Origin: Paramecium tetraurelia
Lineage: Eukaryota > Ciliophora > Oligohymenophorea > Peniculida > Parameciidae
Reading direction: 5' to 3'
Assembly: GCF_000165425.1 (NCBI RefSeq)
Contig: NW_001799066.1
Span: 434,001-498,000, forward strand
Length of the DNA stretch: 64,000 nt
This document shows, in pieces, positions 2,082 to 60,602 of the stretch. Made by a program: the position numbers and the translations under genes. The stretch's first letter is position 1, and each line of letters begins with the position of its first letter. A model generated the notes under the pieces. The model made no database searches and was not told the DNA's origin. It saw only the letters and a list, made by a program, of their open reading frames with translations.

Positions 2082-4114
<2,033 letters not shown>

Positions 4115-6938: not shown

Positions 6939-7625
6939 TCAAGGATCAGAATCATCTGACAAAAGCAAACTCTAGACCTACCCTAATCTTTTAAAATAAC
7001 TTAATCGAGTCAAATTTTTGAGACATATTTATGAACTAGAATTAAGTTTTTGTAATAATTCCGAATATAGCATTTAAATTGTTAAGGTTTATTATCCTTC
7101 TCCTTATGAATTACATTTATTGGCTAACTTTTATAAATCTGAGTCATAATTATTATGTTTAGAATTTTTTGAACTGTGTTTTAGTTTTTTTAGAGAATTT
7201 TCAGGGTGTATATACTAGCATCTTGATCCATAATTGCACCATCCATAGTTTAAGAAATTTTTGCATGGTTTTGTTTTGTAGTTTTAATGTAGATGGGCTT
7301 TAGGTAATAGCTCAGATTAACCATGTGCATATGAACACTAAATAATTAACAAATAATAATACATTTGAGCCAAATTTGCAACTACCCGTAAGAGTAAAGT
7401 TTTTGCATAGTTCAGTCTTTTTCTTTTTAGTATATTCCTCTATGAACTATTTTTTTTCAAGAGAATTATTGAACTTCTTTTTGTTAGGTTTGACTCTAAA
7501 ATGATTATATTCTATTTTTACCCTATTTCGAATTCCTTCTCTTCTTCATCTGTACTACATTAATCAAATTAGATTTGAATATAATGGTCAATCTCTAATT
7601 TAATATTCTTAAAATTATGTTCCAT
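6939..7625 (-). CDS. Tandem CCCH zinc-finger protein (tristetraprolin/ZFP36-like)
   Basis: Probable RNA-binding regulator of mRNA stability. Finger 1 reads TELCKNFTLTGSCKFGSN, then C and YAHG; finger 2 reads PCKNFLNYGWCNYGSRC then QYIH. Both fit C-x8-C-x5-C-x3-H, and each is preceded by the family lead-in (KTEL, YKTKP), with linker spacing as in the TTP family. A 25-nt GT-AG intron at 7338-7362 falls inside finger 1 before its third Cys. The N-terminal about 60 residues are charged, and one frame slip is needed near 7510. The C-terminal 100 residues are polar with Leu-rich helices and end SDDSDP. Stop TGA at 6939. It lies just downstream of, and on the same strand as, the acyl-CoA synthetase gene (95 bp). 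Confidence 0.85.
7338..7362 (-). other. 25-nt intron splitting a CCCH finger
   Basis: A GTATTA...TTTAG intron of 25 nt on the minus strand. Removing it joins the first two Cys ligands of finger 1 to the third Cys and the His, giving perfect C-x8-C-x5-C-x3-H spacing. This is strong internal evidence for Paramecium-type introns. Confidence 0.85.
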
Positions 7626-7720
7626 TATTTTTTGACTAAATTAATTATTAATAGAAAAAATTATTAAGATATGCTTTTTAATTTCAAAATATTTATTCTA
7701 TTAAATTTAAATCTATTAGA

Positions 7721-9796
7721 TCATTCGCTTATCGAATATAGCTCATTTATTTAATTAGCAAAAAATGCCTTAGCTTTGTGTCTCATCAACTTCAATGTAT
7801 TGCTTGTTAATCCATGTACAATAAAACTGATTGGCTCAAGGTATAGTTATTTTACATTCTCTAATCCGTTGAGTTTCTCCAATTTTCCCTAGAGTATTAA
7901 TAAATTTTACTTATCTAGTTACTTGATCTAGGAAATACTTTACAATGTCCTTATTTTTACATAATTCTTCAAAAGTTTAATTTAAACCAAATTGATTGCC
8001 TAGATTGAGTACAAATTATTTATCTGGGACAATGAAACCAATACAATAACTTTTTGAAGAGTCACCATAGACAAATGCTTCAGTTACTCCATTCACTCTT
8101 TAATAGATTCCTTCTATTTTTTCAGGTGCAATGTATTCTCCTTAGCTCAATTTGAATATATTTTTGACTCTGTCGATAATTTATAAGGCACCATTTGGTC
8201 GTATGACTCCTACATCGCCAGAATGGATCCATCCATCTTTATCAATCATTTCTTTTGTCTTTTCTTCCTCTTTGTAATATCCAGCAAAGATAGCATTGCC
8301 TCTTAAACCTAGGCGTTATATTTATATTTACAGATTTCCCCTCTTGGAGTTATTTAATTATTTTCATTAACATCAGTGCTATGATAATTCATTTCAGGAA
8401 CATCAATTACTTTAAATTCTATATTAGGAAAAACACCACCAACATGTCCACTGATTGAATCTTCAGCCTTAGTAATGAAGGATCCTCCACAACCTTCTGT
8501 TTATCCATATCCTTCAATGAAGGGTGCACAAATAACACATTTTAAAAAATCTATTACTTCTGCAGACATTGGAGCTGAACCTGAAAGCATATATCTAACT
8601 CTTCCCCCTAATGCTTCTTTGGTCTTATTGAATACCATGTTATCCCAAAATCTATGTTCTACATGACCTCCATTTTTAAGATAATATTATTTGCTTGATA
8701 AGGCTTATTCACATAGTTTTTTTTTGGCCCCTTGCAGACTTTCTAATTTTTGCTTAATAGTAGTATATATTCTGAAGTATAATCTAGGAACACTCATAAA
8801 AAGAGTTGGTTTGACCATTTAAAGATCCTAATTTAATTTTTGAACATCTCCTCCATACATACAAATTGTGCTTCCGTATCCCAATAAAGTGATGACAACA
8901 AATCTCTCTAATACATGAGGAAGGGGTAAATAACTTAAATAAACATCCTTCTAACTTACTACAATGCCTTGAAATACCACTCCTCCACTTACTGATACAA
9001 AGTTTTTATGCCTTAGCATAACACCTTTGGGCAATCCTGTTGTGCCTGATGTGTAACTGAAAGTAAAAATATTATTTTCAGTCACTTCAAAATATGCATG
9101 TACTTTAGCCTTTCCTGCTTAGATTACTTATTCATAAGGCATGACTTTGAGTCCTTTTTAATTAAACTTTTATTATGTATATAAAGTACTTTCTCAATAA
9201 TTTCTTAGCTTAACTCGTCAAAACATATTATATTTTTTAATGCATGATAATTTGATACTTTCAATATTGTCTAGGCGTTCGACTCAGAAATAAAGAGAGT
9301 ATTAAGCTAAGTTTATTCGAAAATATAAGGTAAACTTTCGAAACCCAAAGTTTCATACAAAGGAATCATTGTATTTCCATATAGAGTATTGGCTATATCT
9401 AGAATTAACCACTCTTCTCTATTTTTAGAAAAAACACCTATCATTTTTAGTTGCTAATCTTCGAATACCTCTGGCTTAGGAATAAGATTTAAGTTGATTA
9501 TACCTGATCCCAAATATCTATAATTAATGTAATTATTACTCAGCATCTTATTTTACTTCTTTGTATGTCATGTATTTGTAATGTTTACTATTCTATCCAG
9601 TAGTAATCTGCTTTCCTATACATCTATTTTCAGGATATAAACGACAAGCTCTTAAAAACATTCCTTGCACTGTCTTTTCTCCCTCAAAATTATCTAATAG
9701 TTTAGCAACATGGGTAGGATTTCTATAAACATTGCTTTCTCCTTCTTTTTTCTCTCCTACAGGTACTGCGTAAATCAATGACTATGCCTACCCCAT
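7721..9796 (-). CDS. Long-chain acyl-CoA synthetase
   Basis: Activates long-chain fatty acids to acyl-CoA using ATP. Seen: AMP-binding core FSYTSGTTGLPKGVMLRHKN (forward about 9010-9075), the ACSL-type N-terminus (NPTHVAKLLDNFEGEKTVQG, then RACRLYPENRCIGKQ), IGVFSKNREEWLILDIANTL, and a C-terminus resembling LK.MRHKAKAFFANQINELY. A 22-nt intron (GTAATA...TATAG) near 9520-9541 restores the frame before LGSGIINLNLIPKPEVFED. Start ATG 9796 (MGQAQSLIYAVPVG), stop TGA 7721. Length about 670 codons is normal for the family. I did not resolve every intron between 7900 and 9450, so slips there cannot be excluded. Likely on ER, peroxisomal or outer mitochondrial membrane. Confidence 0.9.
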
Positions 9797-9923
9797 TTAA
9801 ATTTAATTATATATATCAATTTAAAAGATCTATCTTAATATATTACTAATTGTATAATTTTCTTAGAGAAACCGATGAGTTATATTATATTTTCGATCTA
9901 TACTAATTGTGATATTATATTCA

Positions 9924-13995
<4,072 letters not shown>

Positions 13996-14302: not shown

Positions 14303-16262
14303 TCATTAATTTTAAATCATCTCTTAAATTAATCTATCTCCATTGATTATATGGGTTGTACAAATTTTTATATCTTTTTCTAAGGAAATATTTAATTTAA
14401 TTACTGTAACGTAATCCTAACCAACGAATCGCTGCTACTTCCCCATATGTAATCCCTCCTACTATGTAGATGACATCAATTTAATTTTAACCTTCCTTAA
14501 CTTCTTCTCCTTAAAGTTGGTTTAATTTTTCAATGCATTACAAGTTCGCCAGGTAAATCTTTTAAGGCTTACAAAACTAATGGGCCCCCCATGTGTTTTT
14601 TGTGATAATTTCTTCAAATATTCGAACTCTCATTAATAAGTAAAAATACATTATTGGTGCATATGCAAGAAAAACATATGAAATATCCTCTGGAGCACAT
14701 GATCAACATCTTCATTAATCAGACGTAAAGGCTTTTCAATTTTTTCCCATATATGAGTATCATTAAGTTTTTTTCCAATTAACCCAATTTTTTCGCAGTT
14801 TTCAAGAGTGATTATGTGCTCAGTGCCATACATATGCAAAATTTCTATGCGATAAAAATCATAAAGTTTGGTCTTCATGCCATTCTAGATTTAATTGTAT
14901 AGACAAAATGATCGAACAACTTTAGTGATGGGAGCACCATAAGAAATAAGATTTTCAATCATTTATTCAACTTATGATGACTTAGTTTAAAGTATTGCAT
15001 GCACTTCTTAATTAATGCACATATTAAATAAAATGGATTCTAGCTATTTACTTAAATGTTGACTAACAATAAGATCTGTAATAGTGTAAATTATTACGGT
15101 CAAGAATAATATTTTGTTCTTTTGGTAGCATTCATAATTTGGTGAGATATTAATTCATATCACTCATATTCATTATATTATCTTATTATTTCATGGATTA
15201 AATCATCTATTTGTTATTCTATCTCCTTTCTTCAAGAACCCTTTGACATTACTTAATATTCATAATTTTTATTCTATTGTAATAAGAATCATTGAGTTTC
15301 ATCGTTTTTGGTCTGTCTTTTAAGGCTTAATCGTTTTTAATAATATCTAGATTGATGGAATTATGCTTAATTGAAAACACTTCATCAATCAATGTTTCAT
15401 ATGTGAAGGGAGTCAACATAGGAGTGATGAAATCTACTCTTCTGTCAATAATCAAGAGTGTATGCATTTTAGATTCCTTAAAACTAACTTCATCTTCAAT
15501 CAATTCTCCTTATTGCTTTTTTTATTTGAGTATATCGATGATATATTTAGAATAATTTCCTTTGGCATAAATATTCTTAAATTTGCCATGCACTAATTCC
15601 ATTCTTTGAATAGACTCAGCCACAGTTTACAAAATTTTCATATCTTGTCCAATATATAATGGCCAAAGGCAATTATTGATTTCCAAAGATAGCAAATCAT
15701 TAGCTATAGGTATTAGATCGAAATTAAAATTGGTTATGACTAAGTCACCCAAAACAGCCTCTTTTTCTAAATAATCTTTGCATACAATATTCATTCTAGG
15801 GCAGAAGATTAGTAAGTATTTTTTGTTCAAATTCTCAAGTTAATTGTTTCTAATGATTCTTACTATTCTTTTCATGTATTATCTATCAGGATTCACAAAA
15901 AATATAATCTAATTAACTTCTACATTCAATTAATCGGAATCAATGTAATAGATTTAATCAACATCATTTTCTTTCAGAATCTACATTGATTCAACAACCA
16001 AATTAAGCATGTCTGCAATAAATTAATCAATGACAAGCACCTTCTTGCCAACAAACTAATTTATATATAATATTAGAAGTCTTACTTAATTCAATTTATT
16101 GATTAGCTTTTTTCTCAAATACTTCTGATATATAGCAGTTTTAAAGGATGACTACTAGTCTTCGAATTGACTTAAGTTGACTTTTCCTGAATTGGAAGGG
16201 ATTCCACTCTGTTTGACTTTAGATGCCACTTATTCAAAGGAGTCTTTGATAAATTGGAACAT
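14303..16262 (-). CDS. VPS33: VPS33, Sec1/Munc18-family subunit of HOPS/CORVET
   Basis: SM protein that templates SNARE assembly at endolysosomal membranes within HOPS and CORVET. Seen: FVGKKVLVIDQFIADMLNLV, NQIIFFVNPDRQYMKRIV, LLIFCPRMNIVCKDYL, the SM core LLIIDRRVDFITPMLTPFTY then ETLIDEVFSI, and the C-terminal block VGGITYGEVAAIRWL followed by TTHIINGDRLIQEMI, which matches VPS33 rather than Sec1, Sly1 or VPS45. Introns of 30 nt (16056-16085) and 25 nt (14380-14404). Two or three frame slips lie near 14690 and 14530-14570. Start ATG 16262, stop TGA 14303; about 630 residues, normal for VPS33. Its start codon is 41 bp from the divergent kinase gene. Confidence 0.88.
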
Positions 16263-16303
16263 TTGTTACTTCTGAATATTAATATTTTAACGATATTGAA
16301 ATT
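16263..16303. promoter_or_regulatory. 41-bp bidirectional intergenic spacer
   Basis: Only 41 bp separate the divergent start codons of VPS33 (minus) and the SNF1-like kinase (plus), so both promoters must be shared or lie inside the opposite coding region. The spacer is AT-rich without an obvious motif. Confidence 0.6.
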
Positions 16304-18367
16304 ATGCTGCAAAAGAAAGACTCTGATAAGGAAAACACTTCCTATAATAACAAAGATTCATAAAAACAAAGGGTGATTGGAGATTACTTATTAGGTTTGA
16401 TGTTTTTACTATTAGAGTTAAAACTCTTGGGGTAGGTACTTTTGGTTTAGTAAAACTTGGAGTGCATTAAATAACTGGAGAGAAAGTGGCCATTAAAATA
16501 TTGGAGAAAGAGCGTATTGTGGAGGTTGCAGATGTAGAAAGAGTGTCAAGGGAGATACATATTTTAAAATTGATTCGACATAGACATGTTATCTAACTAT
16601 ATGAGGTAAATTTAAACCCTATATATCATAGATAATAGAAACAAAGAAGCATATATTTCTGGTCATGGAATTTTGTGATAATGGTGAGCTTTTTGATTAC
16701 ATTGTGAAAAATGAAAAGTATGACTCTAGAATTTAATTAATTAGACTAGAAGAAGTTGAAGCTTGTCGAATATTCTAGGAACTAATCTCTGGCATAGAAT
16801 ATATTCACAAACTTAACATCGTCCATAGAGACTTAAAGCCAGAAAATCTTTTATTGGATCATTCAAATCAAATTAAAATTGTAGATTTTGGACTTTCTAA
16901 TACATACAAAGAAGGTGAATTACTTAAAACAGCCTGTGGAAGTCCTTGTTATGCGGCGCCAGAGATGATTGCTGGTCATAGATATCAAAGTATCTTGGTT
17001 GATATTTGGTCATGTGGTGTTATTTTGTTTGCAACAATTTGCGGTCAATTGCCCTTCGAAGATAAACATACAAGCGAGTTATACAAAAAGATTCTTAATG
17101 GATAGTATACAATACCATCACATGTCTCATAAGATGGTTAATCCTTTATTAAAGGGTTATTGAATACTGATCCCAAAAAAAGATTTGACATTGACTAAAT
17201 TAAATCTCATCCATGGTTTAAATTATATAAGAGAGTTCATTCAATACCATAAGGAATCATCATAGGATATAGTCGAATTCCAATTGATGAGGACATTGTT
17301 GAATAACTCGCTCAAAAAGGATATAGCGCTGATTATATTAAGAAATGCCTTGATGCTAATAAACACAATAATCTAACCACAGCCTATTTTCTACTCCTAA
17401 AAAAACATTTGATTAAAGGAGGCCAATCAACAGCTGATATCAATTCCTAAAATTTCAATGAAAAACTCTTAGAACCAGCTACTAGACCATCGAAACGTAT
17501 ATCTCTTTCTTAACTTAAAAGCTCCCATAAGCAATTTATTAGATAGTTAATTAATGAAAACATTAAAGCACAATAGATCAGGATCATGTCAAACTAATTA
17601 AAAATCACACACTTAAGGAAGAGGAATGTCTGTCCCTTAAGTCGAGGATATCAGATCAATCTATAATGGATCAAAAAATTATCAGAATTCTTCATTATCA
17701 ATCGAAGTAATCAATTTAATCAAATATCAAATAGGATCAGTCCTTTTTATTTGAAAGAAATAAATCTTTATCTTTCCAATAGAATAACCATAAGAAAATT
17801 CCTACTGATATATAAATCAATGATGTCTTAAATAAAACAACTTACGTAAATACAAGTAAGAGATCTTCTAATGCTTCGACTGTGTCCCCTGGACATTAAA
17901 ATAAATTGCTTTAATATTTGAGTAAAAATAAATATTTAAATATAGAATCTTCAACAAAAAACACTACTCCCACAGCAGTTAGGGGGAATTCTTAATCGAA
18001 AATGCCATATAATACTAAAACTACTAAAAACCAAAAAGTTTCCTATACAAATTTCGATAATAATAATAATTCTATGTTGGAAAAAAAGAAAGAAAATAAA
18101 CCAATAAATTTAGCTGACTCTACTAACATTGAAAGCAAAAAAAGATCTTTGCATATAGAAGGAGTAATAATAGAATTTTATTAGGTTTAGGATCTCTCAA
18201 TGCCTGCAAGTACTAAACCATAATCAATGCCATATCAATTATGGCTAAAGATGAATAGCAGAAAAGGATCAAGAGATTATAGCAGTGGAGGATCTAAGAC
18301 AAAAAAATCTAATGGCAGTGGTAAAACTAATATGAATCAGAGCTTTAACTTTGATAAGAGAGCGTGA
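16304..18367 (+). CDS. SNF1/AMPK-like serine/threonine kinase (CAMKL) with UBA-like segment
   Basis: Ser/Thr kinase. Seen: glycine loop LGVGTFGLVKLG, ATP lysine VAIKILEKE, catalytic loop [19 protein letters not shown], activation loop LLKTACGSPCYAAPE with a phosphorylatable Thr, and the DIWSCGVILFATICGQLPFE block, all typical of AMPK/SNF1. After the kinase, residues about 290-340 (IDEDIVEQLAQKGYSADYIK) resemble the UBA/autoinhibitory domain of that family. The C-terminal 330 residues are polar, Ser/Asn/Gln-rich and poorly conserved. Introns: 16395-16415 (21 nt), 16606-16631 (26 nt), 16718-16744 (27 nt). One frame slip is needed near 17570-17610. Start ATG 16304, stop TGA 18365-18367. All catalytic residues are present, so probably active. 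Confidence 0.9.
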
Positions 18368-19062: not shown

Positions 19063-20083
19063 TCACAATTATTTTCTGTCGTTATATCCTGAATTTCTAA
19101 CAACAGAATTTCTCCCACTGTTGTTAGTTCCATAAGTACTATACCCTTCAGGAGCTATAGTAGCCCCTTTGATACTACTTGTTTCAAATTAAGTTGTCAA
19201 CGCAGTACCAGATGGCCCAGTCCTTTTAATTTCACTTTCTTTTGTTACTGTAACCTTGCTATTTCTCAAGGCTTCTAATTATGTTTCAGCCATTGTAAGT
19301 TTTTCGGATATATCTGAATTGATTTCTTTTTCCATAATTCTACCTCCCCTTACATAGAAATAATTTACTATTCTGATTATAAGAAACTCTCTAATTACAG
19401 TTCCAATGCTCTTATTCTTTGGTACAGCGATTCAAGTTCATTGTCTTTATCATTCATGAGTAGTTTGAGTTTATGAATTTCATGATCCTTAAATTCGTTT
19501 TGTTCTTAAGAATTTTTAAGGTCATTTGTTAAGCTGTCTTAAAGTTAATGATAGATATTTACTAATTTTCTTTTTAAGGAGTCTTATTTCATCATCTGCT
19601 CCTTGATTTTTGGAATTAGATTTCTAAATACTGCATTTTGTTTTCCACCTCGAGTCCATGTCATCCATTGTGACAACTTGTAAAGGCCTTTCTTAATGAT
19701 GCACTTCAGCATTATTTGGTTATGTAGGTGCAATCCTAACAGAGGGAGTGATTAGAAGAGGTTGCGACTATGTGATGCTTTGGGATACAACAGATGTAGT
19801 AGCAATTTGTCTAGTAGAAAAGGGGCTTCCAAAATAATAATGATAATATACTCTATTCCAATGTTTTGAGATGAATACTATTATATTTAGGGCTACCTTA
19901 GCTAAGGACTACATAATAAAGAAGTGATTTTCCTTATAATAGAAAGTTTCAGTTTAGCTTATAGATCCTTATTGGCCTATTCTGGGTTTTTTAATTAAAT
20001 TGGATGATTAATTAAGAACTGATTGAATTTGAGAATGATTGTACCCTGCTTAGCTATGAATAATTATTATAATATTACTCCAT
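19063..20083 (-). CDS. Unknown coiled-coil protein
   Basis: No family recognised. Starts MEQYYNNYSQLSRVQSFSNS at 20083. The N-terminal third is polar (Ser/Thr/Pro/Gln), the middle is a strong coiled coil (KDHEIHKLKLLMNDKDNELE, SLYQRIRALELQLE), and the end is a Ser/Thr/Gly-rich tail (TGPSGTALTTQFETSSIKG). Frame changes near 19985, 19640 and 19340 are needed; some may be short introns I could not place. Stop TGA 19063. About 310-330 residues. Possibly cytoskeletal, by composition only. Confidence 0.55.
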
Positions 20084-20429
20084 TATGAATTAGCTGTTAT
20101 TAAATAAATATTAATGTAAAAGCATTTCTCTTAAAGTTTGGTTCAAAAGATTATCATAATTTTAACAAATTATGATAAACACATCATGTTTGATTGTGAT
20201 GAACACTAGAAACATTGTGCAAAAAAGTTTAAGATTTTTCAGTTTGTGGCAGTTTATTTACCTAGTTAAATCGAGACGAAAATATGTCAATTTGATGTTA
20301 ATCACATTTTTTATCTTATACAAAAATGCCGCTTTTTTTTTTTTTTATACCTCAGAGCATTATATGGCTTTGATTTTTGTAATTGTATTTTGTGATCGAT
20401 TTGAAGTGACTGTTGATAATTCAATTTAT

Positions 20430-20760
20430 TTGACTTATATATAAATATGTATGAAGTGAAATCTTAAAATGTCTCTGTAGTTTACATTCAATATTACATT
20501 TTCTAGCTGATAGATCGCTTGGGGGCCTGTATTGATTGATTATTTGGACATTGATATATTTTAGAAATTCCTTACTATCATTTTCAGAGATAGAAAAAGA
20601 ACTAAAAAAATTTCTCTGAATCATGCTGATTAGTTTTGATGGGCTTTCTTGCTGTATATTTGCATTAGAAGAAAGCTTAGGAAACAACTAATGGTAATGC
20701 AGAACTATATTTAATATTAGTATATTTTCACCCTTTAGATGAAATTATCCTCAATTTTGA
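20430..20760 (-). other. Doubtful open frame in an 876-bp intergenic gap
   Basis: A minus-strand frame is open for about 110 codons but has no good start codon. Apart from one TAG near its beginning, its glutamines are all CAA/CAG, unlike the confirmed genes here. I think it is chance or a remnant. The rest of 20,084-20,959 shows nothing recognisable. Confidence 0.2.
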
Positions 20761-20959
20761 ATGCATTTAATTAATTGATAGAAACCTTTTGCTGGGTGTT
20801 AGATTAAGGCTAAGTATATAGTTTAATAAATTTAATTATTTAATAATATTATGCAGAAACCAATTCATTATTAAGAATAAATGTAATAAAAAATAGCATA
20901 CATAAGGTAATATAAAATCAGGGGTAATCTATTGTGAGTGTAATTAATTTATATATTAA

Positions 20960-22081
20960 TCAATCTCTATAAGTAACAATTGAGTAAGTTTATTATCTGC
21001 TTTTAGTCTTTGTTCTAGCATTTATAGAATGTGATCTCAATTTTGGTAGTTTTAACACATCTCTTTTTATGGTAGATTAATCTAATAGACTTTAGTTAGT
21101 TGGAGTTACTAATTAGGTCTTGTTTGTGTTTTGTATTAGTGTTTCATAGTTATTCTCCAAATCATATTATTATAAATAGCCAAACAACTGAATGTCATTC
21201 AATTTTATTATGTTTCTTAAACCCTTTAATTATTTATTTTAAGTTAACATTTATTCTGTCTATTTGGATTATTAGGATAATTATTTTTGAATAGTTTCCT
21301 TTTATTACACAGACTAGAAGCTCAATCTGACTCCAGGTTACAATTTAAAATCCTAAGCTTAAGATTCTATAAACTCAATTATTGTTTCTTCATTTTCTGC
21401 TTATCTTCGTTTCTATCGTATCTATTCCACTAATTTTGGTTTTGAAATCACAGCATTATTATCAGTCTATGGTACTTCAAATGGCAAGGTAGTTATTACG
21501 TCCTTTTTTGTTTAATTGTTAGATCTTGCAATAGGATCACAATTGTAATCGTAAGTGTATTCTTTTGATCCTATTTGCATTATCAATCTATTATATTACT
21601 CTTTCATCATCCGTTTCTCTTTCGATCGTTCTCTTATCATTTATTCCTTATTTGATTTTTCAATACATTTTTATTCCATTATTCTTCTTTCATTTGGATA
21701 TTCTTCAACAAATTCTATAGTTTTTTATCTAACCAATTAAGGTTCATAGTCTTCCCACAATTAAGTTGGTAACATAAATTTATGCTTAGGAGGTAATTCT
21801 ACTTTTGGTGTCATCCGAAGAGAAATCGGAGCTATGTCTTTAATATCATAAGCTCTAAATCTTTCCTTCTATGTACTATGAGCCTCAAAATCTTCCATCT
21901 CATTATAATTTTGAAAAAAAGGATCAAAACATTTCTAATGCATCATATTGAAAGACAAATTAGCTGCAAAAGAAGCACTTGATTGGGATTCTAAACTTTC
22001 AAAAATCTTATCCTCTACTCTTGTCATAATTTTGTTAATAATATAAGGCATGATGGTTTCAACTATTTCTAAATATTCCAT
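20960..22081 (-). CDS. Unknown 373-residue protein, single exon
   Basis: Clean frame from ATG 22081 to TGA 20960 with many TAA/TAG glutamines and no intron. Begins MEYLEIVETIMPYIINKIM; a central basic helical stretch (KEQMIRERSKEKRMMKEQYN) precedes a motif SKEYTYDYNCDPI that reminds me of short conserved motifs in axonemal and basal-body proteins. The C-terminal half is Gln-rich and helical. No signal peptide, membrane span or enzyme motif. A role in cilia is only a guess. Confidence 0.75.
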
Positions 22082-22195
22082 TAAAATATTTAAAAATGAA
22101 ATATTATTCAGAATTATCAAAAATTAACATGCTGAAAAAAGGACTATAATCATTAAAGCATAAAGTTTAATTATATTATTTTGAGTTTTATATTA

Positions 22196-23329
22196 TGAAT
22201 TAAAATGAAGATGACCTATTTTTTGATTTTTGTTTAACGAGTTAATAAATTACTTTGATAAAAATAATTAATCTAAGGCTTGATCGATAATGGATCTGAT
22301 TCGTGGGAACAATCCAAAGAATTTACAGGTGATATTTTATTACAATTGGGAGTTCTAAATGACAAGGCATTTACATCATTTAAATAATCTATGAGATTAA
22401 TAAATAGCCTCTATCATTTAAGATTTATACTCAGCCCTTTACCATAGAATAGATGACTAAGGGTGTAATTAAAAAAGATTATTCAAAAAATCCTCCTCTT
22501 AAGAAGCAAGATTTATTGTGCTTTCATTAAATAGCTTAGGATTAACATCATTAGGTGAATGCAGATCTATGGCTAAAGGATTATAAGTTCGTTATATTTA
22601 TGATAAATGTTTAAGAATATTGAATGCTCAAAATAACTAAATAAATTCATTTGAATTTGAATAATTGCTAAGTTTAAAAATCATACTTTGATAAAAATTG
22701 TCTATCAATTATGCCAAACTACCTTAGGTTGGATATTCTTTCGATCTCATATCAGAATACTTAAAATTTCAACTTCCCTATAATTGAGAAATATTAATAA
22801 AATACAAGAATTCTAGGAAAATGAAGATTCTATATACAATCTTCCAAACATAAAAGAAATAGGTTTGAGAGGTAATCTCATCACCCAAGTTTATAAATAC
22901 AGAGAACGAATAGTTTTATCATGCAAAACAATATGTAAATTTCCATTTTATTTTATAGAAACTATTGAAAGCTTGGCAGTATTGGCAAATGAAAGATAGT
23001 ATCTCATTAATTTAGGAAAATAAGAAAATTTCAAGAAAAAATCAAAGTTTAGAAGGAAAGAAATAGACAATTCTAAAACCATCAGTAAGTGGAGTAAAAC
23101 AAAAATTTTATATAATGAAGAAAAATGTTCTAATTTCAATAAGGTATATAAAACCATTGATTCTGCTAATTATTTAATGATACCACATTAAAAAGCTTAC
23201 TAAACATAAATGAAATCTAAAATATTACTTGTAATTCATAGATTTTCAATTTATTAATATCTATTATCTCTATTCGTAAAAAAATAAGTCTTTTAAATTG
23301 AGATGTTTATTTATATAGATAATATTTGA
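22196..23329 (+). CDS. Leucine-rich-repeat-like protein
   Basis: Repeats with LRR character: FIVLSLNSLGLTSLGECRSM, LRILNAQNNQINSFEFEQ and IKEIGLRGNLITQVYKYRER. After them a basic helical tail includes ETIESLAVLANERQYLINLG. The start ATG 22196 (MNQNEDDLFFDFC) is plausible. At least three frame changes (near 22260, 22450 and 22690-22760) are needed, some perhaps short introns. The 3' end is uncertain; the frame is open to TGA 23327-23329, 35 bp before the convergent giant gene. Probably a protein-protein interaction module. Confidence 0.5.
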
Positions 23330-23364
23330 AATTCAATGAATAATTTTAAAACGTAAATATCAAC

Positions 23365-26300
23365 TCATAGCATCTAATATGTTATTTCATTAGGTTTCAA
23401 ATATTCACATACGTCCGCAACAATTAAATTTTAGAATGTAATATCCTAATCGTCATCAGGTGCAATTACCATTAAGTCAGGATAATCTTCTTTAAATTAT
23501 GTAATCATTCCTTCAATTTTTTGATTTAATTTCATAACTTTAACTTAAATCTTTTTATTTCTGATATAATAGAAAATTTGTCCTTATGTTTTCTTACAAG
23601 GGCAGCCATCTGGAAAAGAATCTCCGAAATTATGATATTATTTTCCATGTGGAGGTGCCTCTGCAATTAAGTATAACAAATTTTAATAATTACCATTCCA
23701 ATTCAACTCTAAAGAAGCATCCAGACCATCTAAAACAGCCTCAGGTTCATCATCACCTCCTTCTGCCGATAATGAATTCAAAAAACTAATGGCAAGGGAA
23801 TATGAAGTAAATTAACAAATATTCACAACATTTTACAACTCATCATATGGATTCTAATGATCCTTATATGATACAATTGCAAATTTCATCTCAATATTAT
23901 GATTTTCTTTTGTTTTTTGCATTATACTTTTGATGACTTCTTTACAGTTATCAATATATTATGACATTGATCCTGTTGTATCAATAACAAAAGCTATGTT
24001 AATTCCTTATATGAATTATACTTTGTGAGTTGATGAACATGGAAATTTATGGGAGGATATCTTGTTATCTTAACTATGCCAAGCTTATTGACAACAAAAT
24101 TGATATTCACCATTTATTTTTTTACATATTGGGCAGTAATAATTACATAGACCTATATTTTATGTTTCCTTTGGGATTGGATGGGCCCATCCTTTATAAT
24201 CCCAATAGTCTATACATAATACTTCATCAAAATTCAGATGTTAAAATCCTTCATATTTCTCCTTTGAGTGTCTAGCTCTAATACCTATTTATTTTTCTAG
24301 GCATTAACTTTCCCCTTTGCATTCAATCAAATGATAATGACTTTTTCCTCTTCTCCTACAACTCTGATCACAAGTTTCTGGAGTAGATTGCTCTCCAATT
24401 TAATACTGTCTAGCAACATTATTATTCTAATCCTATATTATTAATTTAAATTCCTCCCCCTATTTTATTGTAAATATCTAAAATTCTTTATTTATATGGA
24501 TTTGGGAAGAATGATGCCCAGAATGGCCATATTTCAAATCACAAATTTTATTACATTCAGGACATTTTTAATCACATAAATGAAATTATTTTTCTGTCTC
24601 TATCATGCAACTATGTATTTAATTATGATTAAGTTACTATGGTTTAATGTTTCTACAACATTTCTTTTTTTCGTTACTTTAAGGAATATATTTAATGTAA
24701 GAGAATCTTGATTACCACATAATTTCAACTTAAGTATATGTTATTTAGCATATTCCTTTCTCTTAACAAAATTCCTAACACTCATGCTAATCTCCGCAGA
24801 AGTGATTTTAATTTTAGGAATTACGATATTATGAATGTTCATGATTATTTTTACATCTCCTTTCACATAATACGCAATTCTAAATGCAATAACTTTCTTC
24901 GCATATATGGTTTTAATGTTTTGTTGTCCTATCTGTTTTGCATTTCTTACTACAATACTAACACGTTTCTCCACATAGATGAACATTAGTGCAGTTATGT
25001 TATTCAGTATGGTTTAATTCTAGATTGCATTTGACTTAACATTAAGTTATGCTGCATTTGATATTGCATTTATGATTTTTCAAGGAACACAAATGATACT
25101 ATGACTCATTATGACCAGCCTTATTTTCGCATTTCTTATTTGGACATACTTTGCAAATTTAATCGCATTTGTGGTCACTCAAACAAGAATGCACATGCGA
25201 ATTTAATTCTACTAATTCTAACAAATTATATTTTAAAGAGTCTAATTTTTCAGCACTTGTTTCTACTTTCTAGTAACATTCTAAAATCCTTTTTTTGTTT
25301 TGTTATTAAATTAAGAGGACTTATTTTTTTTCTTCCATTTTTTGATATTCCTGTTATAAATCCTTAAGCTTAAGATTTGTATAATTATCTCTCCCTTCCC
25401 AGCCTTTAAGTAAAGTTTCAAATTTTTACATTTCTTAATCTAAAACCTGTTTTTCTTTCAAATGCTACTCTAAATCTCTCAATTCTTTCAAATATTTGTC
25501 AATTTTTGTAATTTACTCTTATTTTTCTTATTCCTTATTAATTAAATTGTTTTCATATTCTTTCAAGCTATTTAATTCTTATTATTCCTTAAGCGATTGA
25601 TCTTTCAATGCAATCAAATTCTCTGATTAATCAATAGATGATTTTTTCAATTAATTTATCTAAGTCTCAAGGTTAATATGTTAGTTTACTTTAATTAACT
25701 TTTTTTCCTGTAAATAATTAAGCTTGGTTTATCTATCAACAATTATTTAAGATTCTGAGATTTCTTAATTTACAATTTCAATTTCCTGCGACAATCTTTT
25801 TATCTCATTCTCATAATAAGTAATTTCTGATTGGATTGACAATAAGAAATTATCTTTGATATTAAAACTTTCTACCTATTCTTCCTAACCAACTTATTTC
25901 TCCATACATTGCTCAAAAAGATTGATTTTGGAAAAATACAAGGCATCAATTTATTCCTTTAATTATAATTCTTCTTTATTACAATATTCAAGCTAATTCT
26001 CAATATTTTAGAATTGAGGCTATGACAATTCTTATCTAAGATCCTCGATCATAATTCTGTTTCTATATCTAGCCAATGATAATTCTTCTATTTCTTCATT
26101 CAACTCAGTAATTTTTGTTTTATTTTTATTTAAATAACTTTTCTTTTCCTTTATTTTTCTGAGGTTATCATATAGCTCTTTATTTTTATCCAACTTCTAT
26201 TAATATACTTACAAAAATAATTGTTAGGGCATGTTGGTATATTATTCCAATAATCTTTAATTTTCATTCTTACTTTATTAGAAAAATTTGATTCCCTCTC

Positions 26301-29300
26301 TAAGATCATGTAATTTTTCTTTTAGTTCTTTTATTTTATTATCATTTTGATTTTTTTCATTCTCTTTATAATAGCCGCCCAATTATAGAATTTCATTTTC
26401 GATTTTTATTATTTCTTCGCTTATTTTTGATTTCTCAGAATTTAAGCTTCCAATTTATTAGTTATTTTTATCAATTTAAATTTGTATTTGTAATTCAATT
26501 TAATTACATTAATATTTAAGATCTGAGTATTTCTACTGAACCTCTTCTTTCTCTTATATAATTTTAATAAGTTTATCACCTTATGTTTTCAACTCATTTT
26601 TAGTCTTCCTTTATTCATCATTTATAAATTTAATATCAAATGCAATTTGCATATTTTCATTTTCTGATTCTAAGTTCATGCCATTTTATTAAACTCTTTA
26701 AACGTTGAAAAAACTAAACTCTTAAACTATATTCATTAGCTATTCTTTCTATTCCTACATAGTAGCTAACTTAATTAAGTTTGAGAGAAGAAATAAATTA
26801 ATTCCAATTTCTTCAATTTTTTGCGAAATGGAAATTAAGCTATTTCTTTCCATCATCTCCTCTTTTTAATTTTGTATTGAAGAATTGTTTCTTTGCTATT
26901 CTAACATATCGATTTCATTTTCAAGTTTTTTTTTCAATGATTCAAAATGCTCTATGTGATTGTTGAAATATTTGCAAGGTAAAAAGCATTCATTGCATTT
27001 ATTTTAACAAAATTAATATCGATCAAATTAAATTTTAAAAAAGTCTTCAAGTTTGGAATTTTCCACTTCAATTTTAGCTTAAAGTTCCATACCATTGATA
27101 TTTTCTATTTCAGATTAAGTCTTTTAAATAATTTGTTTCTTTCTTTGCTCCATCAATTTCTTTAGCTAATTATTAGCTTCTAATAAGTTTGATTTATGAT
27201 CATTTATATTATCCTTTAACTAGAGATCATTATATAATGATTTCAAAAGTACATGGTTGTATTTTATGTAATCAAAATCATCCATCTCAAATTAATATTT
27301 TCTTTAATTCAACCTTAATTCTTCACCTTATTATTATTAATCTAAAGTAAATTTATACCACTGACTTTTGCTTTCTGAGTAAATTTATTCCAATCGGATT
27401 TCAAAATCTATTAGAGTTGCATCTTTGGTATCTGACAATTCTAGCTAACAAAGAACAACCTTTACCATAGATATTAATTCCTTACCATTTTTCCATCGAA
27501 TACATTCTATAGACTTCTACAAAAGGTAGGCTCTTATTTTCTTAAGTTAATGATCAAATAATTCTTTTTCATTATTAACTAATTATTCAACTGACATATA
27601 ATTACTAAACAATTCTTTCAAAAATGGAAAATCTCGTATTTGTTCGTTATCTAATGCGTTAAAAGAATTGACATCCCTAATGATCTTATATAGAAAACCC
27701 TTAAATAACCTTTCATCTTTTAGCTACTGTGATTCTTCAAATACATTATTAAAAAGTTCTTTTTAATGTCTATCAAAAGAAGTATCTGAGTTTAAAATTG
27801 TAGCATCACTAATCGCAATAATAAATGATAGCATTTTGACTTCTTCTTTTTCAGTTCTAGATCCATCAAATAAACCTTCACAGTCAAGTATTAAAAACTT
27901 TTAATTATCCACAATTGCTAAACTTCCCCAAACTCCATCAGTGCATCTGGCTGATGAAACAGAAAATCTTGTTCCAAATACTCTATTTAATAGGTAACTT
28001 TTGCCTGATGACTGCCTACCAATTATTCCGACAACAAAAATTTTTTTTTCTTCAACTAACAAATAATCCTCTAAAAACCCAAGATGTAATTATTTGACTC
28101 TACAATCTATACTTATACTCTTTTAATTTAGTGAAAATTATCTAAACCCATCATTTAAAGGAATTAGAGTTCCATATTCAATGGTACAAAACTATAAAGG
28201 AACTCTTGAAAATATAATATCAATTATTTAATTCCTATCACACTCAGAGTATTGACTGTCATTCATACTCAAATTAGTAAACTTCAAATCCAATTTCTTA
28301 AAATAATCCATCATTTTAAGCTATTCATTTTCTTTAACATATAAAGTAATATAGCTTAATTTATTTTGATACAAAAACTCAGCATTTGGTCCAAATTTAC
28401 TTTCTGAGCCTTTAACAATGTCCAATGCAGGATTGCCCAAAAGTTTACTTTTTTATTCTTGTCTTTGCTGAGATAAATTTGATTAAATTTTTAAGACATA
28501 TTTTTTTCCTTCATTTTAAAATTCATACATCTAATCAAAAATTATAACATCAGAAGAATCTGAAACAATTTTTACATGACCATTGATAGGTATTGTTTAC
28601 AGTTTTTTACCAGTAAGGTCATATCTATCGCAACAATGAAAATTAGCAAGGTAAAAGTATTTGCCACTTGGACAGGCTAATAATTATTTGTAATTTTATG
28701 TTGGATTAGTGCTGGGTGTGAATTCTGTTTAAGTAACCTCATTTCCTATTTCCTGTAAGCATTTAATAAGACGAAATTATTATTCTTTTTCAGATTATGT
28801 ATAGATTTTGTTATTTTTGGATAATACTATTAACTTTTTACAAGTGTAAATATATGCAACTTAATCTACTAAAAATGGATTACCTTAATTATCCAATTAA
28901 TAACAATAAAATTAATCATTTTATACTATGCCTCTTGAGGAAATTGTGATCTACTATACATATTTTTCTTTATGATTGAATATGAATAAGTGGTCAAGTG
29001 TAATAGTCGAAATAGTATACAGCTTGTTATATTTCCATTAGAGCTAATTATCTTATCACTATTGCTTTCTGGGCTTAAAATAATAAAAATAAGATATAAG
29101 CCATTTTTTAAGTATAAACTATAAAAATGGAAGATTTATTTTTAGTTTAAAATATCTCTTTAATATGATAATCTTATTTCCTATCTTATAAAAAACTACC
29201 ATCTAAATAATAATCATAAATTTCATCCAATTCAGGTTTAATATTGTCTATATTCTAAGACTTATTACGATAGCATCTGAAATTAATTTTCTTTACTGAA

Positions 29301-30415
29301 TACAATACTTATTGACATAATTCTTAATATAATTCGTCTATCTTTTTAATAAATTCCCCCTATATTTCCTTAAATTTTAAATTAATTATCTTTTTATGTT
29401 CATTAAAATATTTCTCATATTTTTTGTTATCTTAAGAGTTCTAGAATTTAAATGTTAATTGTTAATTTTCAATAAATTCAACCGACTAGAATATTGATGA
29501 CACAATCTCCTCTGCTATTGGCAATTTTGTGTCATCATAGTGGAATTTGCTATACCAGGGCTATAATTAATTACAGATTTTTTGGATTAGTTTTTTCCTT
29601 TGTTATTGTACTTCCTCATTTAATTATATTGATAGTTCGTTTATTAGAGTTCTAATTTTATCAGTTTAATGCTCCTTTTTCAAAATATTAATCAAAGGGA
29701 CTATACTATGATTATTTTTGCTGATGATTTGAATCAACAAAGTTTAAGTAAATGATTTAAAAGTGTTTTATAAGTCTTCAATTTTAATCTATTCTAACCT
29801 TTTTATTATGTAAATTTAAGGGATTATTGAATAAGATTTAATAATTTACCAATTTTTAATATCATTTTCAAGCCTAGAATACTAACATTAATATCTTTAA
29901 ATTTCTTATTTGTTCAATTCTTTAAAATCAAAATCTTATCGCACTAATTATTCCGAACTAAAAGGTATTGCATTTCCATTATACCAATTAGAGAATACTA
30001 ATTCATCTAAACATATAATTATATTGTCTGTAAAATCCTGTAAGATTCTAAATAATACAATTTCTATTGATTGTTCTTAAATAGGTATTTTTGTGAAAAA
30101 TGAATTTGATAGTATCAAGCAAAATAACAATAAATCTGAAAATTTAATTACAATGAGATTTCCTTTTTCTGATTAATACAATAATTCTGCTAAATCGATT
30201 ACTTTTTTAAAATCATTCTAAATTTTTCTTTCAATATTGCTTTAACATCCAAATATACCTTATATTCTTTGTTTTGATTAAGTATTTAATTCAATACACA
30301 TTTAATTAACATTATTAATATGAATATGTATTTTGTCAAGTTAAGAATTTAAAGCATGGTCAGTGACTATTGAATACAATAAAGTAATTTCAAATTCTCT
30401 ATTTTTTGGATTCAT
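23365..30415 (-). CDS. Giant GBP/VLIG-like GTPase, coiled-coil, Cys/His-rich, VWA protein
   Basis: One reading frame from ATG 30415 to TGA 23365, about 2,340 residues, open over 5.6 kb without a slip; the only break is a 16-nt GT-AG candidate intron at 29044-29059. Order: residues 1-440 helical and unassigned; about 455-700 beta-rich, possibly propeller-like; about 780-1000 a large-GTPase domain with P-loop VVGIIGRQSSGKSYLLNRVF, switch DCEGLFDGSRTE and an IRDV motif matching the RD G4 element of GBP/atlastin/VLIG proteins; about 950-1700 long coiled coil; about 1740-2110 a Cys/His-rich array with CxxC pairs (CGETCQYCSKKC, CPECNKICD, CPICKK); about 2130-2345 a VWA domain with MIDAS-like FVIDTTGSMSQYIDNCKEV. 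Likely a self-assembling dynamin-like GTPase with zinc-binding and metal-dependent adhesion parts; partners unknown. Confidence 0.85.
29044..29059 (-). other. Candidate 16-nt intron
   Basis: Minus-strand sequence GTGATAAGATAATTAG contains an in-frame TGA and, if spliced, joins the upstream frame (ending FLLFQAQKAI) to the downstream frame (starting LQWKYNKLYTIST). Sixteen nt is shorter than usual Paramecium introns, so a sequence error is the alternative. Confidence 0.4.
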
Positions 30416-30699
30416 TATCCCTAAATTTTTAATTCAAATATTAAATTTTGTAGATAAATCATCAATTATATTATGATTTATAAAAATGATAGAAAATGAG
30501 AAACTAATAAAATATTAAGTTTTTTTTAAATTAAATAATTTAATAATACTGATTAACGACATAATTATAGAATACTTTGAATATTCATAATTATTACCCT
30601 TTATATTGAATTAATTAATCTGAATTTACAGATGAGAATGTAAAATGATACTTTTTACCCCAAATTCAAAAACTAGTTCATATATTTTCTATTGTATAG
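30416..30699. promoter_or_regulatory. Divergent intergenic region
   Basis: 284 bp between the start of the giant GTPase gene (minus) and the possible gene at 30700 (plus). AT-rich; no distinct element seen. Confidence 0.35.
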
Positions 30700-31375
30700 A
30701 TGAACAATCAAAAAAGTGTTATTCTTGTAAATGCCCGATTTATTAAGATTAATAATAACAATTAACTTGAAATTCAAGTTTTATTCATTTAAAGAAATCC
30801 AGATGTAGACTTAGAGTATGCCAAATGCAATTATGAAATAGTGCAATATTATTTAAATAGAAAAAAAGGTACTAATTAATTTTAATGGAATTAAATGTTA
30901 AAATTTGCTCATTTTATTCAAGTGTAAAGATAATCATGGCATAAATTGTAAAAATTGAATAAGATATTCCACCTGCTCTATCGGTGACATTATAAGAATG
31001 GAACAGCCTGATATCAAAGTTAAAATTTCTATATTTAAAATATCAGGTTGATTAATTGCATTTAGTTCCCTTCAAATTTCACACCTTAAATTTCTATTAT
31101 AATAATTGAGGTGCTCATCAATGTGTTGTGTTCTAAGTTGTCAAAAAATTAAAGATAAATTCAATCAACTTCATCTTCACTTCAACAAACAGAACCAGAT
31201 GATCCAATGTAAATAGTTTTATAGCAAATTAGAATTAAAATGCAACAACTATAGATAGATTAAAAGTGCTAATTGTAATGTATTTCTCTAATAAATGGCT
31301 TTTACTTTTAAAATATAGGAAATGATATTCAAATTTAAGTTAGTTTATATATATTATTATGACGAAAGAGTATGA
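30700..31375 (+). CDS. Unknown protein, probably interrupted
   Basis: Starts MNNQKSVILVNARFIKINNN and continues with coding-like segments using TAA/TAG glutamines (IVKIEQDIPPALSVTLQEWN, DQLHLVPFKFHTLNFYY, SSSLQQTEPDDP), but in shifting frames with TGA codons between them near 30875, 30955 and 31110. Some gaps could be introns. No family recognised. It may be a decaying gene. Confidence 0.4.
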
Positions 31376-31430
31376 CTTTGGTAAATAATGAATAATAAAC
31401 TGATACCTTTCTAATTAATTACATAAAATC

Positions 31431-31616
31431 TCAATTTATAGATAACTTATTGAACTTTAATTTTTTCATTTCCTTTGCTTTTAATTAATCTAAATGTGTT
31501 TCTGTTTCAGAAGTATTCACAGATTTCTTTAATCTATCATTTCATTCATGTTAAATTTCAATACCGATTTTTGTCAGATATTAGAATTCTTATATTTATT
31601 CATTAGTTGTAGTCAT
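31431..31616 (-). CDS. Small coiled-coil protein or remnant
   Basis: About 60 codons from ATG 31616 (MTTTNEQIQEFQYLTKIGIE) to TGA 31431, with one slip near 31540. The second half is charged and helical (NTSETETHLDQLKAKEMKKL). Low confidence; no family. Confidence 0.3.
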
Positions 31617-32276
31617 TTTATTTCCAAATTTACTAATGTCTTTTAAGAATATATGTATTTCTCTCTATAAACTAAACTCAATTATTAATTACTTTTAATA
31701 AACCTAAAATTTCAACTATCACAAAGTACTTAAATATTAATGAGTTCTGGGTTGCCTATATAGAATTGAATTATTCTTTGTTATTTTTTTTGCTATGAGG
31801 TTTCTTGTTTTTCCAGTTATATATGGAATTCTAAATTGTCATTCAAAATTTTTGTTGTTTAATTCTAAAAAGATGAATCAATGTAATTAATCTTTTTTTT
31901 TTAAGATGTATGACTGATAGGATTATTTACAATTCTCGAATGTTAAAAATAGTTTTTGATATAGTATTCAGAGAATTAGATATATTTTAAATTATGTTAC
32001 AATTATTTATTGATTATTCATTCCTAATTTTTGGTAATGGGTTAAAGGAGATCAATTTCTGATTATTTCTTCATTACATTAAATATTTGTGAATATTTTT
32101 GATAAGAAGAATCCTTCTTCTAAGAAATTAAGACATTTTTAATTCTTATATTTATTTTCATTCAATTTGATAATATTTAAGTAATCATTTACTAAAAATA
32201 ATTTCAGATAAAATCAATACAAGATTGGTTTATATTTTAGGTTTTTAATTATAATGTTCAAATTGAATTTCCTATT
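31617..32276. other. Intergenic, nothing recognised
   Basis: 660 bp of AT-rich sequence with frequent TGA in all frames I examined. No gene, RNA or repeat seen. Confidence 0.35.
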
Positions 32277-33480
32277 TCAATTTTAATGAAATTTGCATTA
32301 GCTTGTTTGATAGTTTCTTGCTTTCTTATAAAAAATATATTTGTTAGAAATTAGACTTAAATTATTTGTTGAATATTGTGATTGTAAATTGATAGGACTG
32401 TATATCAACTGCTTTATATTATGAAGTTTCCTCTTCACAGGAAGAATTTTTGAATCCAAATTCGAATTTGTAACTATATAATTATAATTGTGTAGTGAAA
32501 TTAAATATGTTCTTTTTTACAATATTCCTATGAAATCCTAGGATAAATGAATTATATCAAGTCAATACATTGCCATATTATTTTTACTCATTATATTTAA
32601 TAAATATTAAATTATGATGCTAATTTAAAATTGCTTATGATTTTGGCTTTTAGAAGGCAAATAATTAATCTTGATGGGCAAATTCAATTAATAAATCCAT
32701 ATATTCAACTGATGTGTTAGATTAAATTTATATATTAGCTTTTACGCATATTTTATTAATTGTAAAACATTTAATAGTTTTATTTTCTACTTCCAATAGT
32801 TAAGGATAGATCTAAAGGCTAAATCAGTTTTCCATTATTTGAAATAAGAATGGCAAAATATTTATAAGTAGAAACGATAGGAAATATAACAAGTTTTGAA
32901 GTCCTATTATTTTATGATGATGAATAAGAAATAATCTACTTTAAGTTTATAAACCTAAAGTTCATTTTTAGGTGAAATTTTAAAAAGTAATTAGAGACAG
33001 ACATTTGTATTGTTGTTCTTTTTCAGTCATTATATCATTTGAAAATTGGAAACTTTGATAATTAAATTTGAAAGAATTTCATAATTTACTTAAAAATTCT
33101 TCCAAATATATATATTTATTAAAATTAGCAGGAGAGAGGGGATAAATCATGTTTAATTGTAATAGGTCTAAATTTATCATTTGTTGGAATTTAAGGATGA
33201 ACATTGCTTGAATTCAAAATTCTTCCCCTACAGCATAGTTAGTTTGTTATAATTGTAGAGTCTGTTCAAATATCTAAAAATCAGGAAGTGTTTTTTTTAA
33301 CAATCTCTTATAAAAATGTCATCTTTAGAAATGGCCCTAATGATGACATTTTTATTAAAGTTCCATTAAATCAATCAAGGATTAAGGTTAAAGTGAAGTT
33401 AGTTTTTAGAGATTTTAATTAGATCTTTTTAAGAAATCTTAAGAAATTATTAATAGCTGCATTAGTTGGAAAAACAAGCA
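32277..33480 (-). pseudogene. Interrupted unknown gene
   Basis: Several minus-strand stretches look coding, with TAA/TAG glutamines and ordinary composition: TLPDFQIFEQTLQLQQTNYA, NLDLLQLNMIYPLSPANFNK, KLVIFPIVSTYKYFAILISN, VEYMDLLIEFAHQDQLFAFQ and, after a 31-nt GT-AG intron near 32530-32560, YNYIVTNSNLDSKILPVKRK, ending at TGA 32277. They are separated by TGA codons (for example near 33200 and 33085) or frame changes that no short intron I tried would remove. I recognise no family. Either a decaying gene or a badly sequenced one. Confidence 0.4.
33310..33355. repeat. 14-bp perfect inverted repeat
   Basis: Arms at 33310-33323 and 33342-33355 (core AAAAATGTCATC and its complement) with an 18-nt loop. 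It could fold into a hairpin in DNA or RNA. It lies inside the interrupted unknown gene. Confidence 0.6.
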
Positions 33481-34039
33481 AAATAAGTAAGTTTAGATAA
33501 AGCAAGGTGATTTATAGAAAGTAATTAACTAAATTTATAAAATTAGAACTATTATTTAAGAATTGATTATAATTTAACTTTACACTAATTAAAGAATGGT
33601 TAGAAAGCTCAGCAAAATTAACATAATACTAAAATTTACAAAATGGCAAAATTCATTTTTAATCTTTAAAAATTTTTAAATATGGGGTGGAATTGTTGAA
33701 ATTATAAGTTCGAAAGGTTTTTCTTTAATATTACAAATACAATTATTTTTTGACTTGTTTTAGTTAATAAAAATTTTTCAAAACATAGGTTCTTTTGTTT
33801 CTTGAAATTAAGATTTTGGAAGTAGAAGTAGAATAAAAATATGTCTGATATACAAAATATATTGTTGTTCAAACAAAGTAGGTAGGAATATGGTAATGGT
33901 CATCTTTATTTTCTTTTGTAAGTAAAACATAGAAATTATAATTCAATATTCAATCTAATCCAAAGATTTCTTGATGAATGGTAAAGTAGATGATAATTGG
34001 TTATTCATTTATTGTATTGATCAAGAAAAAAGGATGTGA

Positions 34040-58391: not shown

Positions 58392-58493
58392 TATATAAAT
58401 TTATATTGATTATATATATTTGGATGCAAATTTTTGGGACTTATTGAATTCAAATTTGATATTCATCGCATATTAAATATTATTAAACAGCAA

Positions 58494-59489
58494 ATGAAGC
58501 CAAGTGGAAAAAAGGATTCAAAATAAATGAATTAAAGATCTCCAGAAAAGATATTACAAAGGAGAAATAATAATAATTAATTATAATACTTAGTAAAATG
58601 GAAAGGTAATGAGGAGCCAACTTGGGAATTCGAAGAAAACATCAGAAATATTATATAAAATTTACCAGTCAATGAATAAGAATTATATTCAAATTAAAAT
58701 GATAAATAAGTAAAATAAGGGATACCTATTAGACATTAATAATAGAATTTTAAGCATCCTAATTGTTCAGAAGAACTCCTTTTTAATAAACAGAAGGAAA
58801 TGACTTAAAAATATTGCAATGCTTACCCTTAAATGGGAGATGAAATTGATAGTGTTCATTTAATCTTAACTTAAGAAGATTGCTTATTTGAAATTAAATG
58901 GAAATCTAGACCTGATGGTTTACAGCCAAACTCAGATTTTTATTAATATGATTAATTCAAAGTAGTTGCTCCAATGCTTTTTATGGACTTTTTAGAAATT
59001 TGTATTTTAGGATATGAAAAACACACAGACATCAAATTTATAGCACCTGGAAAGGACAATATTGAAAGAACTTAATTGATTAAAAGAATCTTATTATAAA
59101 ATCCAAAATATTTGGATACTAATAAAAGTTAATCGGATAAATCTGCAGAAGAAGTAAAGGTAAATGATTAGGCTGCTTAACTTAAAGAGAAAAACAGTTA
59201 ATTAAAGAAAAACACAATAATAACCTTCATGCAATCAGAGCAGAAATAAAAATAATCAATAGAATCGTCCAATTAAAAATTGATACAAAAGTCGGTTGTA
59301 GTTTCAGAATAATAACGTAACGATAGGTCATCTCAGTAAGATGATTTTTAGGAAGACAAACTATCTCAGTAAGACGACAAAGTGGTCTAATAATAACCAG
59401 GAGTATAGGATTAAAAGAATGGTTCAAATTAAAATGATGAAGAATAAATAGATTAAGAATCAATATCTTTAGAATAATAATAAGAATGA
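58494..59489 (+). CDS. Chromodomain protein (HP1-like)
   Basis: Single-exon 331-residue frame, ATG 58494 to TGA 59487-59489, no slip. Residues about 18-55 form a chromodomain (EKILQRRNNNNQLQYLVKWK then TWEFEENI) with aromatic-cage positions Y, W and W. Residues about 120-185 (EIDSVHLILTQEDCLFEIKW then QYDQFKVVAPMLFMDFLE) resemble a chromo-shadow domain, giving the HP1 layout. The C-terminal 120 residues are Gln/Asp-rich and disordered, with a short repeat SQQDD. Chromodomain proteins bind methylated H3 and act in heterochromatin and, in ciliates, in programmed DNA elimination; that role here is inferred from the family. Confidence 0.85.
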
Positions 59490-60592: not shown

Positions 60593-60602
60593 AAAATTAT
60601 TA
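60593..60602. promoter_or_regulatory. 10-bp spacer between divergent start codons
   Basis: The start codons of the small minus-strand gene (60592) and the casein kinase 1 gene (60603) are separated by 10 bp. If both starts are right, the 5' leaders must overlap the opposite coding sequence. Confidence 0.45.

Follow-up and report, generated by a model that had tools for sequence, protein, structure and literature searches.

A gene on the minus strand of the window (the whole 64,000-nucleotide stretch of Paramecium tetraurelia DNA analysed here) encodes a five-part GTPase–VWA protein (30415-23365, contig C108, code 6). We propose, with the balance of probability about even, that the gene belongs to a ciliate family of giant multidomain GTPases with five members and that its product is a GTP-switched cytosolic scaffold or tether. 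The family comprises the window gene (C108) and its paralogs C191, C217, C207 and C182, in a genome searched over 69,072,372 bases and 231 contigs. A tblastn search of this genome with the main open reading frame (ORF) of the window gene returned 23 matches: nine from the family, on its five contigs, ten to the VWA part only and four to the GTPase part only. The component domains are known; their combination is apparently undescribed in the literature that we searched.

The gene is read in two frames. An ORF scan of positions 20000-34000 with the standard code yields no ORF of at least 150 residues. With code 6, an upstream ORF (30415-28994, minus strand like every feature of the gene given below) starts at an ATG, has an in-frame TGA seven codons earlier and encodes 473 residues. 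The main frame (28995-23368) holds 1,876 codons without a stop and is followed by the stop codon TGA at 23365-23367; it is open downstream of a TGA at 29058-29056. When the main-frame stretch was dinucleotide-shuffled 200 times and read in six frames, TGA-free runs reached at most 591, compared with 1,876 in the main frame. G+C content is 20–35% over most of the window, and the genome is probably a macronuclear one. The original prediction of a single intact 7-kb frame therefore does not hold for this copy, as its first 473 codons and the next 1,876 lie in different frames. The argument for function drawn from that intact frame falls with it: the window copy is broken once, and function is argued instead by the four relatives and by pN values well below pS.

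The predicted architecture itself is borne out. C191 is a single frame of 2,432 residues from ATG to stop, with Pfam matches to URGCP_GTPase (residues 801-949) and VWA_4 (2216-2340). Because C191 carries both domains in one open frame, we consider the fusion genuine. The order GTPase, coil, Cys/His array, VWA, and the fusion of a GBP/VLIG-class GTPase to the other three, are thus supported both by this paralog and by the Pfam matches to the GTPase and the VWA domain. In C217 (L033), which has the same domain order, a surplus A in an A7 run interrupts an otherwise open frame, as expected of residual indel errors. Its C-terminus carries VCKYLTHTEIT as a short tandem repeat. Surplus base and repeat, on the reverse strand at about 8,000 and 8,900, may be assembly errors or real. 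C182 repeats the order with hardly any coil; GTATTTAATTTATTTGAAATAG, close to the N-terminus, is a plausible intron of 22 nt. C207 (L034) is readable only to the coil, with an assembly gap (2,478 N at 7523-10000) before the zinc/VWA part. At about 2500-3050 in C207, some 300 bases without a counterpart in the paralogs break the N-terminal frame; this insert is possibly a retained internal eliminated sequence.

Alignment with the paralogs places the frame change of the window copy, one surplus nucleotide, at 28993-29003 (near 28997), where the window reads ACT-TGA-C and the exact base is indeterminable. The junction sequences (window, TATTACACTTGACCAC; C217, TATTATAGAGGATAAC; C191, TATAATAGAGGACATT) differ by one extra nucleotide in the window, and the alignment crosses the junction without a gap. 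The two ORFs of the window might be taken for two separate neighbouring genes, an N-terminal one and a GTPase–VWA one. This is extremely improbable, given the gapless alignment and given that C191 has both parts in one frame with zero intergenic space. Candidate introns at the junction (GTA..TAG, 18-35 nt) were listed and rejected; none bridges it in the correct phase, and the coding sequence of the paralogs is uninterrupted there.

For the window copy to yield the full protein, either the frame change must be an error in the sequence or the ribosome must bypass it. Failing both, this copy has been damaged recently. We put about even odds on a sequence or assembly error, with the window gene intact. 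The lesion is single, the site includes a TT pair, and C217 likewise carries one surplus base, in its A7 run, in a frame that is otherwise open; the window site is, however, scarcely a homopolymer. Programmed +1 frameshifting at ACU-UGA-C, by which the ribosome would bypass the site, is very improbable. It would suit the order of the last zero-frame sense codon, the UGA immediately after it and the following C, a context that presumably resembles known +1 sites such as the bacterial RF2 site, and the step yields TDHLFIFN, opposite RGHLFIFN and RGQLYIFN in the alignment with two paralogs. Yet any one-base insertion restores the same alignment, and C191 and C217 have no shift at the corresponding site.

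Substitution patterns bear on whether the window copy is decaying. All 17 pairwise comparisons give a pN lower than pS, rough figures in that synonymous sites are near saturation. Between the window copy and C191, pN and pS are 0.23 and 0.62 in the G domain, 0.31 and 0.57 in the Cys/His-VWA part and 0.42 and 0.60 in the N-terminal part. Values of pN below pS argue that the window copy was functional in the past, and leave the frame change undated. It is possible, though we lean against it, that this copy is a decaying pseudogene and that only the paralogs are functional. Such decay would fit the frame change, the long G-domain branch of the window copy and its N-terminal part, which is the most diverged. 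It sits poorly with a single lesion in about 2,350 codons, with 1,876 codons that stay open where the strand's other two frames contain 35 and 107 TGA, and with the low pN relative to pS of the G domain.

The GTPase domain (27508-28209) is defined by Pfam, by motifs and by the alignment of the five paralogs. The predicted motifs are all present: the P-loop GRQSSGKS (28020-27997), DCEG (27885-27874) and RD, contained in IIRDV (27684-27670). RCTDG lies at 27948-27934. G1 (GxxxxGKS), G3 (DxxG) and the RD that replaces NKxD are invariant in the five-member alignment. As anticipated, profile searches matched both GTPase and VWA models in Pfam. By profile and motif criteria, the protein is a large GTPase of the dynamin/GBP superfamily, for which hydrolysis and nucleotide-driven dimerisation are predicted.

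The family resembles three known groups and differs from each. URGCP_GTPase (VLIG/URGCP, PF25683) is the top G-domain model in all five member pieces (1e-13 for the window piece), and the family has the QSSGKS P-loop, RCTxG and acidic-EG G3 in common with the VLIG-like sequences of this genome. It differs from them in being a separate clade, in adding a Cys/His array and a VWA domain, and in passing the curated cut-off of 55 bits in only one of the five pieces: C191 scores 56.6 bits as a piece and 52.6 at full length, the window domain 51.3 as a piece and 49 as an ORF, and none of the five members passed in the genome scan. The GBP model (PF02263) is over its curated cut-off in five of five pieces (window, 1.6e-9), as is MMR_HSR1 over its own; it was unlisted in scans of the long ORFs as opposed to the separate pieces. 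A profile search of the PDB gave 23 sequences at E≤1, led by GBP5 (the best, 5e-11), GBP2, GBP1 and Sey1 (8e-8). The RD motif is a further likeness to GBPs, but the GBP model scores below URGCP in every member, the clade is separate, and the family P-loop G[KR]QS[SG]GKSY differs from the G[LMP][YQ]RTGKS of the genome's GBP sequences (QS[SG]GKS against YRTGKS or QRTGKS). The family thus has Ser where these GBPs carry Arg, a position that we take to be the arginine finger of GBP1, and its catalysis may differ for that reason. RHD3/Sey1 (PF05879) matches all five pieces (window, 2.5e-9) and includes the Sey1 match in the PDB; all five score under its cut-off (42.4).

The family also stands apart in a tree built from 19 G domains of this genome. 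The five members form their own clade (96/95), as do eight VLIG-like sequences (95/97) and six GBP sequences (100/100); the root is placed at the midpoint, which gives no sister group for the family clade, and the program warned of long branches meeting. The sample took the five members, all eight VLIG-like loci and six of eight GBP loci (L062 and L063 were removed by a length filter), chosen from 41 GBP and 17 VLIG-like matches in the genome. The window branch is long (0.48, compared with 0.10 for C191). Since the family is a separate clade within this genome, the label interferon-type is too specific. The genome is rich in large GTPases, with 41 GBP-model matches, many of them exon pieces, and nine URGCP matches over the cut-off.

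Two segments that the original prediction did not mention precede the GTPase domain: a conserved N-terminal region and a probable β-rich segment. The N-terminal part (28997-30415, 473 codons in the first frame, delimited by the ORF and the paralog alignment) contains no known domain. It is 32% identical to C191 and 32% to C217, and its first ~190 residues are the most conserved. A tblastn search of the genome with the C191 N-terminal part found five matches on four contigs, all to family members, the N-terminus of C182 being too distant to match. The sole PDB match to this region (E 0.36) was disregarded. The segment directly before the G domain (28210-28995, second frame) is, by alignment, probably β-rich and looks propeller-like by eye; one of the five members gave a weak propeller match (E 0.083).

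The region beyond the G domain (26602-27507) is probably helical and includes a small, conserved motif, C...C..C...C; it is followed by a coiled-coil-like stretch (25216-26601; main-frame residues 799-1260, with a dip at ~967-1008). Both were delimited by alignment and periodicity. In a crude periodicity test, p fell below 0.05 (uncorrected) in 10 of 43 windows. Two of these come right after the G domain; the other eight fall within main-frame residues 799-966 and 1009-1260. In the region after the G domain, p was 0.010-0.014 in residues 421-546 only, and residues 547-798 contained no significant window. The test thus upholds a coil-like signal, but over ~420 residues and not the ~750 once claimed as coiled coil. 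Among the paralogs no part differs more in length than the coil, as would suit a spacer; it is nearly absent from C182.

The Cys/His array is confirmed, at 396 residues where ~370 had been predicted (24010-25197). Composition and alignment define units of the form HxC-x3-C-x2-4-C-x3-C, probable zinc sites. The array contains 42 Cys and 30 His, compared with 21 and 14 in the 1,266 residues before it, and Cys or His fill 49 of the 72 invariant columns of the four-member alignment (29 C, 20 H). The module pattern, which was written after viewing the sequence, has three matches (mean 0.01, maximum 1 in 2,000 shuffles). The suggestion of B-box zinc fingers found no support, as no Pfam zinc-finger model matched the array at E≤1. 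By tblastn in its own genome, the array matches family members only. When the C191 Cys/His-VWA part was the query, five of the 22 matches were to the family, and the other 17 lay in the VWA part, with starts no earlier than query residue 400.

The C-terminal VWA domain is likewise borne out, by Pfam and by motif. The core of the VWA_4 match spans 23638-23997, and the region continues to the stop codon; DTTGS, a DxTxS motif of MIDAS type, lies at 23982-23968. VWA_4 matches the window protein at 4e-15 as a whole ORF and 3.9e-16 as a piece, and the window (59.5 bits), C217 (45) and C191 (32.7) are all over the cut-off of 27 bits. C182 has no VWA_4 match. The proposed metal site is partly upheld: DxTxS is present in three of the four readable members (window, DTTGS; C191, DSTLS; C217, DSTGS), which is consistent with metal binding there, but is lost in C182. 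With neither VWA match nor DxTxS and with nearly all of the coil missing, C182 indicates that neither VWA nor coil is required in every member. A tblastn search with C182 gave 29 matches, nine to the family, 19 to GTPase parts only and one to a VWA part only. The family shares its VWA subfamily with VWA_4/alpha-kinase proteins of this genome, and differs from them in having no alpha-kinase. The Alpha_kinase domain was found in L023 and L026 and weakly or partly in L030; within the extent of their frames, L024 and L020 have none.

How might such a protein work? GTP binding would dimerise the G domains, as in dynamin-superfamily GTPases, and the coil would space the chain or let it assemble further, as its class suggests. 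The Cys/His array may fold around zinc and, with the VWA metal site, form a head that binds partners; the N-terminal and β-rich parts could provide a second binding platform. Most likely, the whole protein would be a GTP-driven, self-assembling scaffold whose partners are bound through the zinc/VWA end. It may serve in traffic, membrane tethering or defence, and the membrane remodelling suggested earlier would likewise be a candidate role.

In animals, the large-GTPase class is known for cell-autonomous defence. It is unlikely that the family is a defence GTPase resembling vertebrate GBP or VLIG and directed against intracellular bacteria or viruses that infect the ciliate. The GTPase class, as given by the Pfam and PDB matches, speaks for it, but ER-shaping and other proteins belong to the same class, as the Sey1 match illustrates, and PADLOC gave no match. 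GBP genes of a protist, an alga, are reported to alter during giant-virus infection (PMC5917014), which also favours defence. Quite unlikely is a more elaborate version, a ciliate counterpart of inducible large GTPases: a distinct, hitherto undescribed eukaryotic giant-GTPase family with a VLIG-like motor and a zinc-array/VWA receptor head, in which a VWA ligand would gate GTP-driven polymerisation, possibly in recognition of intracellular bacteria or viruses. If a ligand-gated, self-assembling GTPase were indeed at hand, a defence-type large-GTPase class would have been joined to a receptor-like head in a ciliate lineage, and the family would be a model in a tractable single cell. Regardless of this, five paralogs and a Cys/His array without a Pfam match make an unexplained family that is open to RNAi feeding in ciliates.

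Relatives outside this genome were sought by two viral scans (33 and 17 pattern matches) and one prokaryote scan (37), which gave no relative; each used two short peptide patterns, by which distant relatives would be missed. Uncharacterised proteins of basidiomycetes, and perhaps of oomycetes, probably have a similar GTPase–VWA order. If this is right, the architecture is older than the ciliates and not confined to them. Among the titles and openings of abstracts covered, drawn from outside the subscription literature and bioRxiv, none describes this domain order, which does not prove it absent. Among ciliates, the Tetrahymena fusion gene GVT1 joins a guanylate-binding protein to an ER-Golgi tether (PMC3143110); it shares with our family a GBP and a tether-like part, and its description mentions no VWA or zinc part.

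No RNA families were found in 22500-31500. In an ORF of 1,184 residues (9353-12907, minus strand), 148 codons are reassigned Gln codons, and Pfam gives no match at E≤0.01. Pfam matches elsewhere in the window identify ordinary neighbours: a FAD-binding/Succ_DH flavoprotein (2790-3869, plus strand), a Sec1 protein (15132-16493, minus strand), a chromodomain protein (58434-59489, plus strand) and two protein kinases (16665-17921 and 60417-61505, both plus strand).
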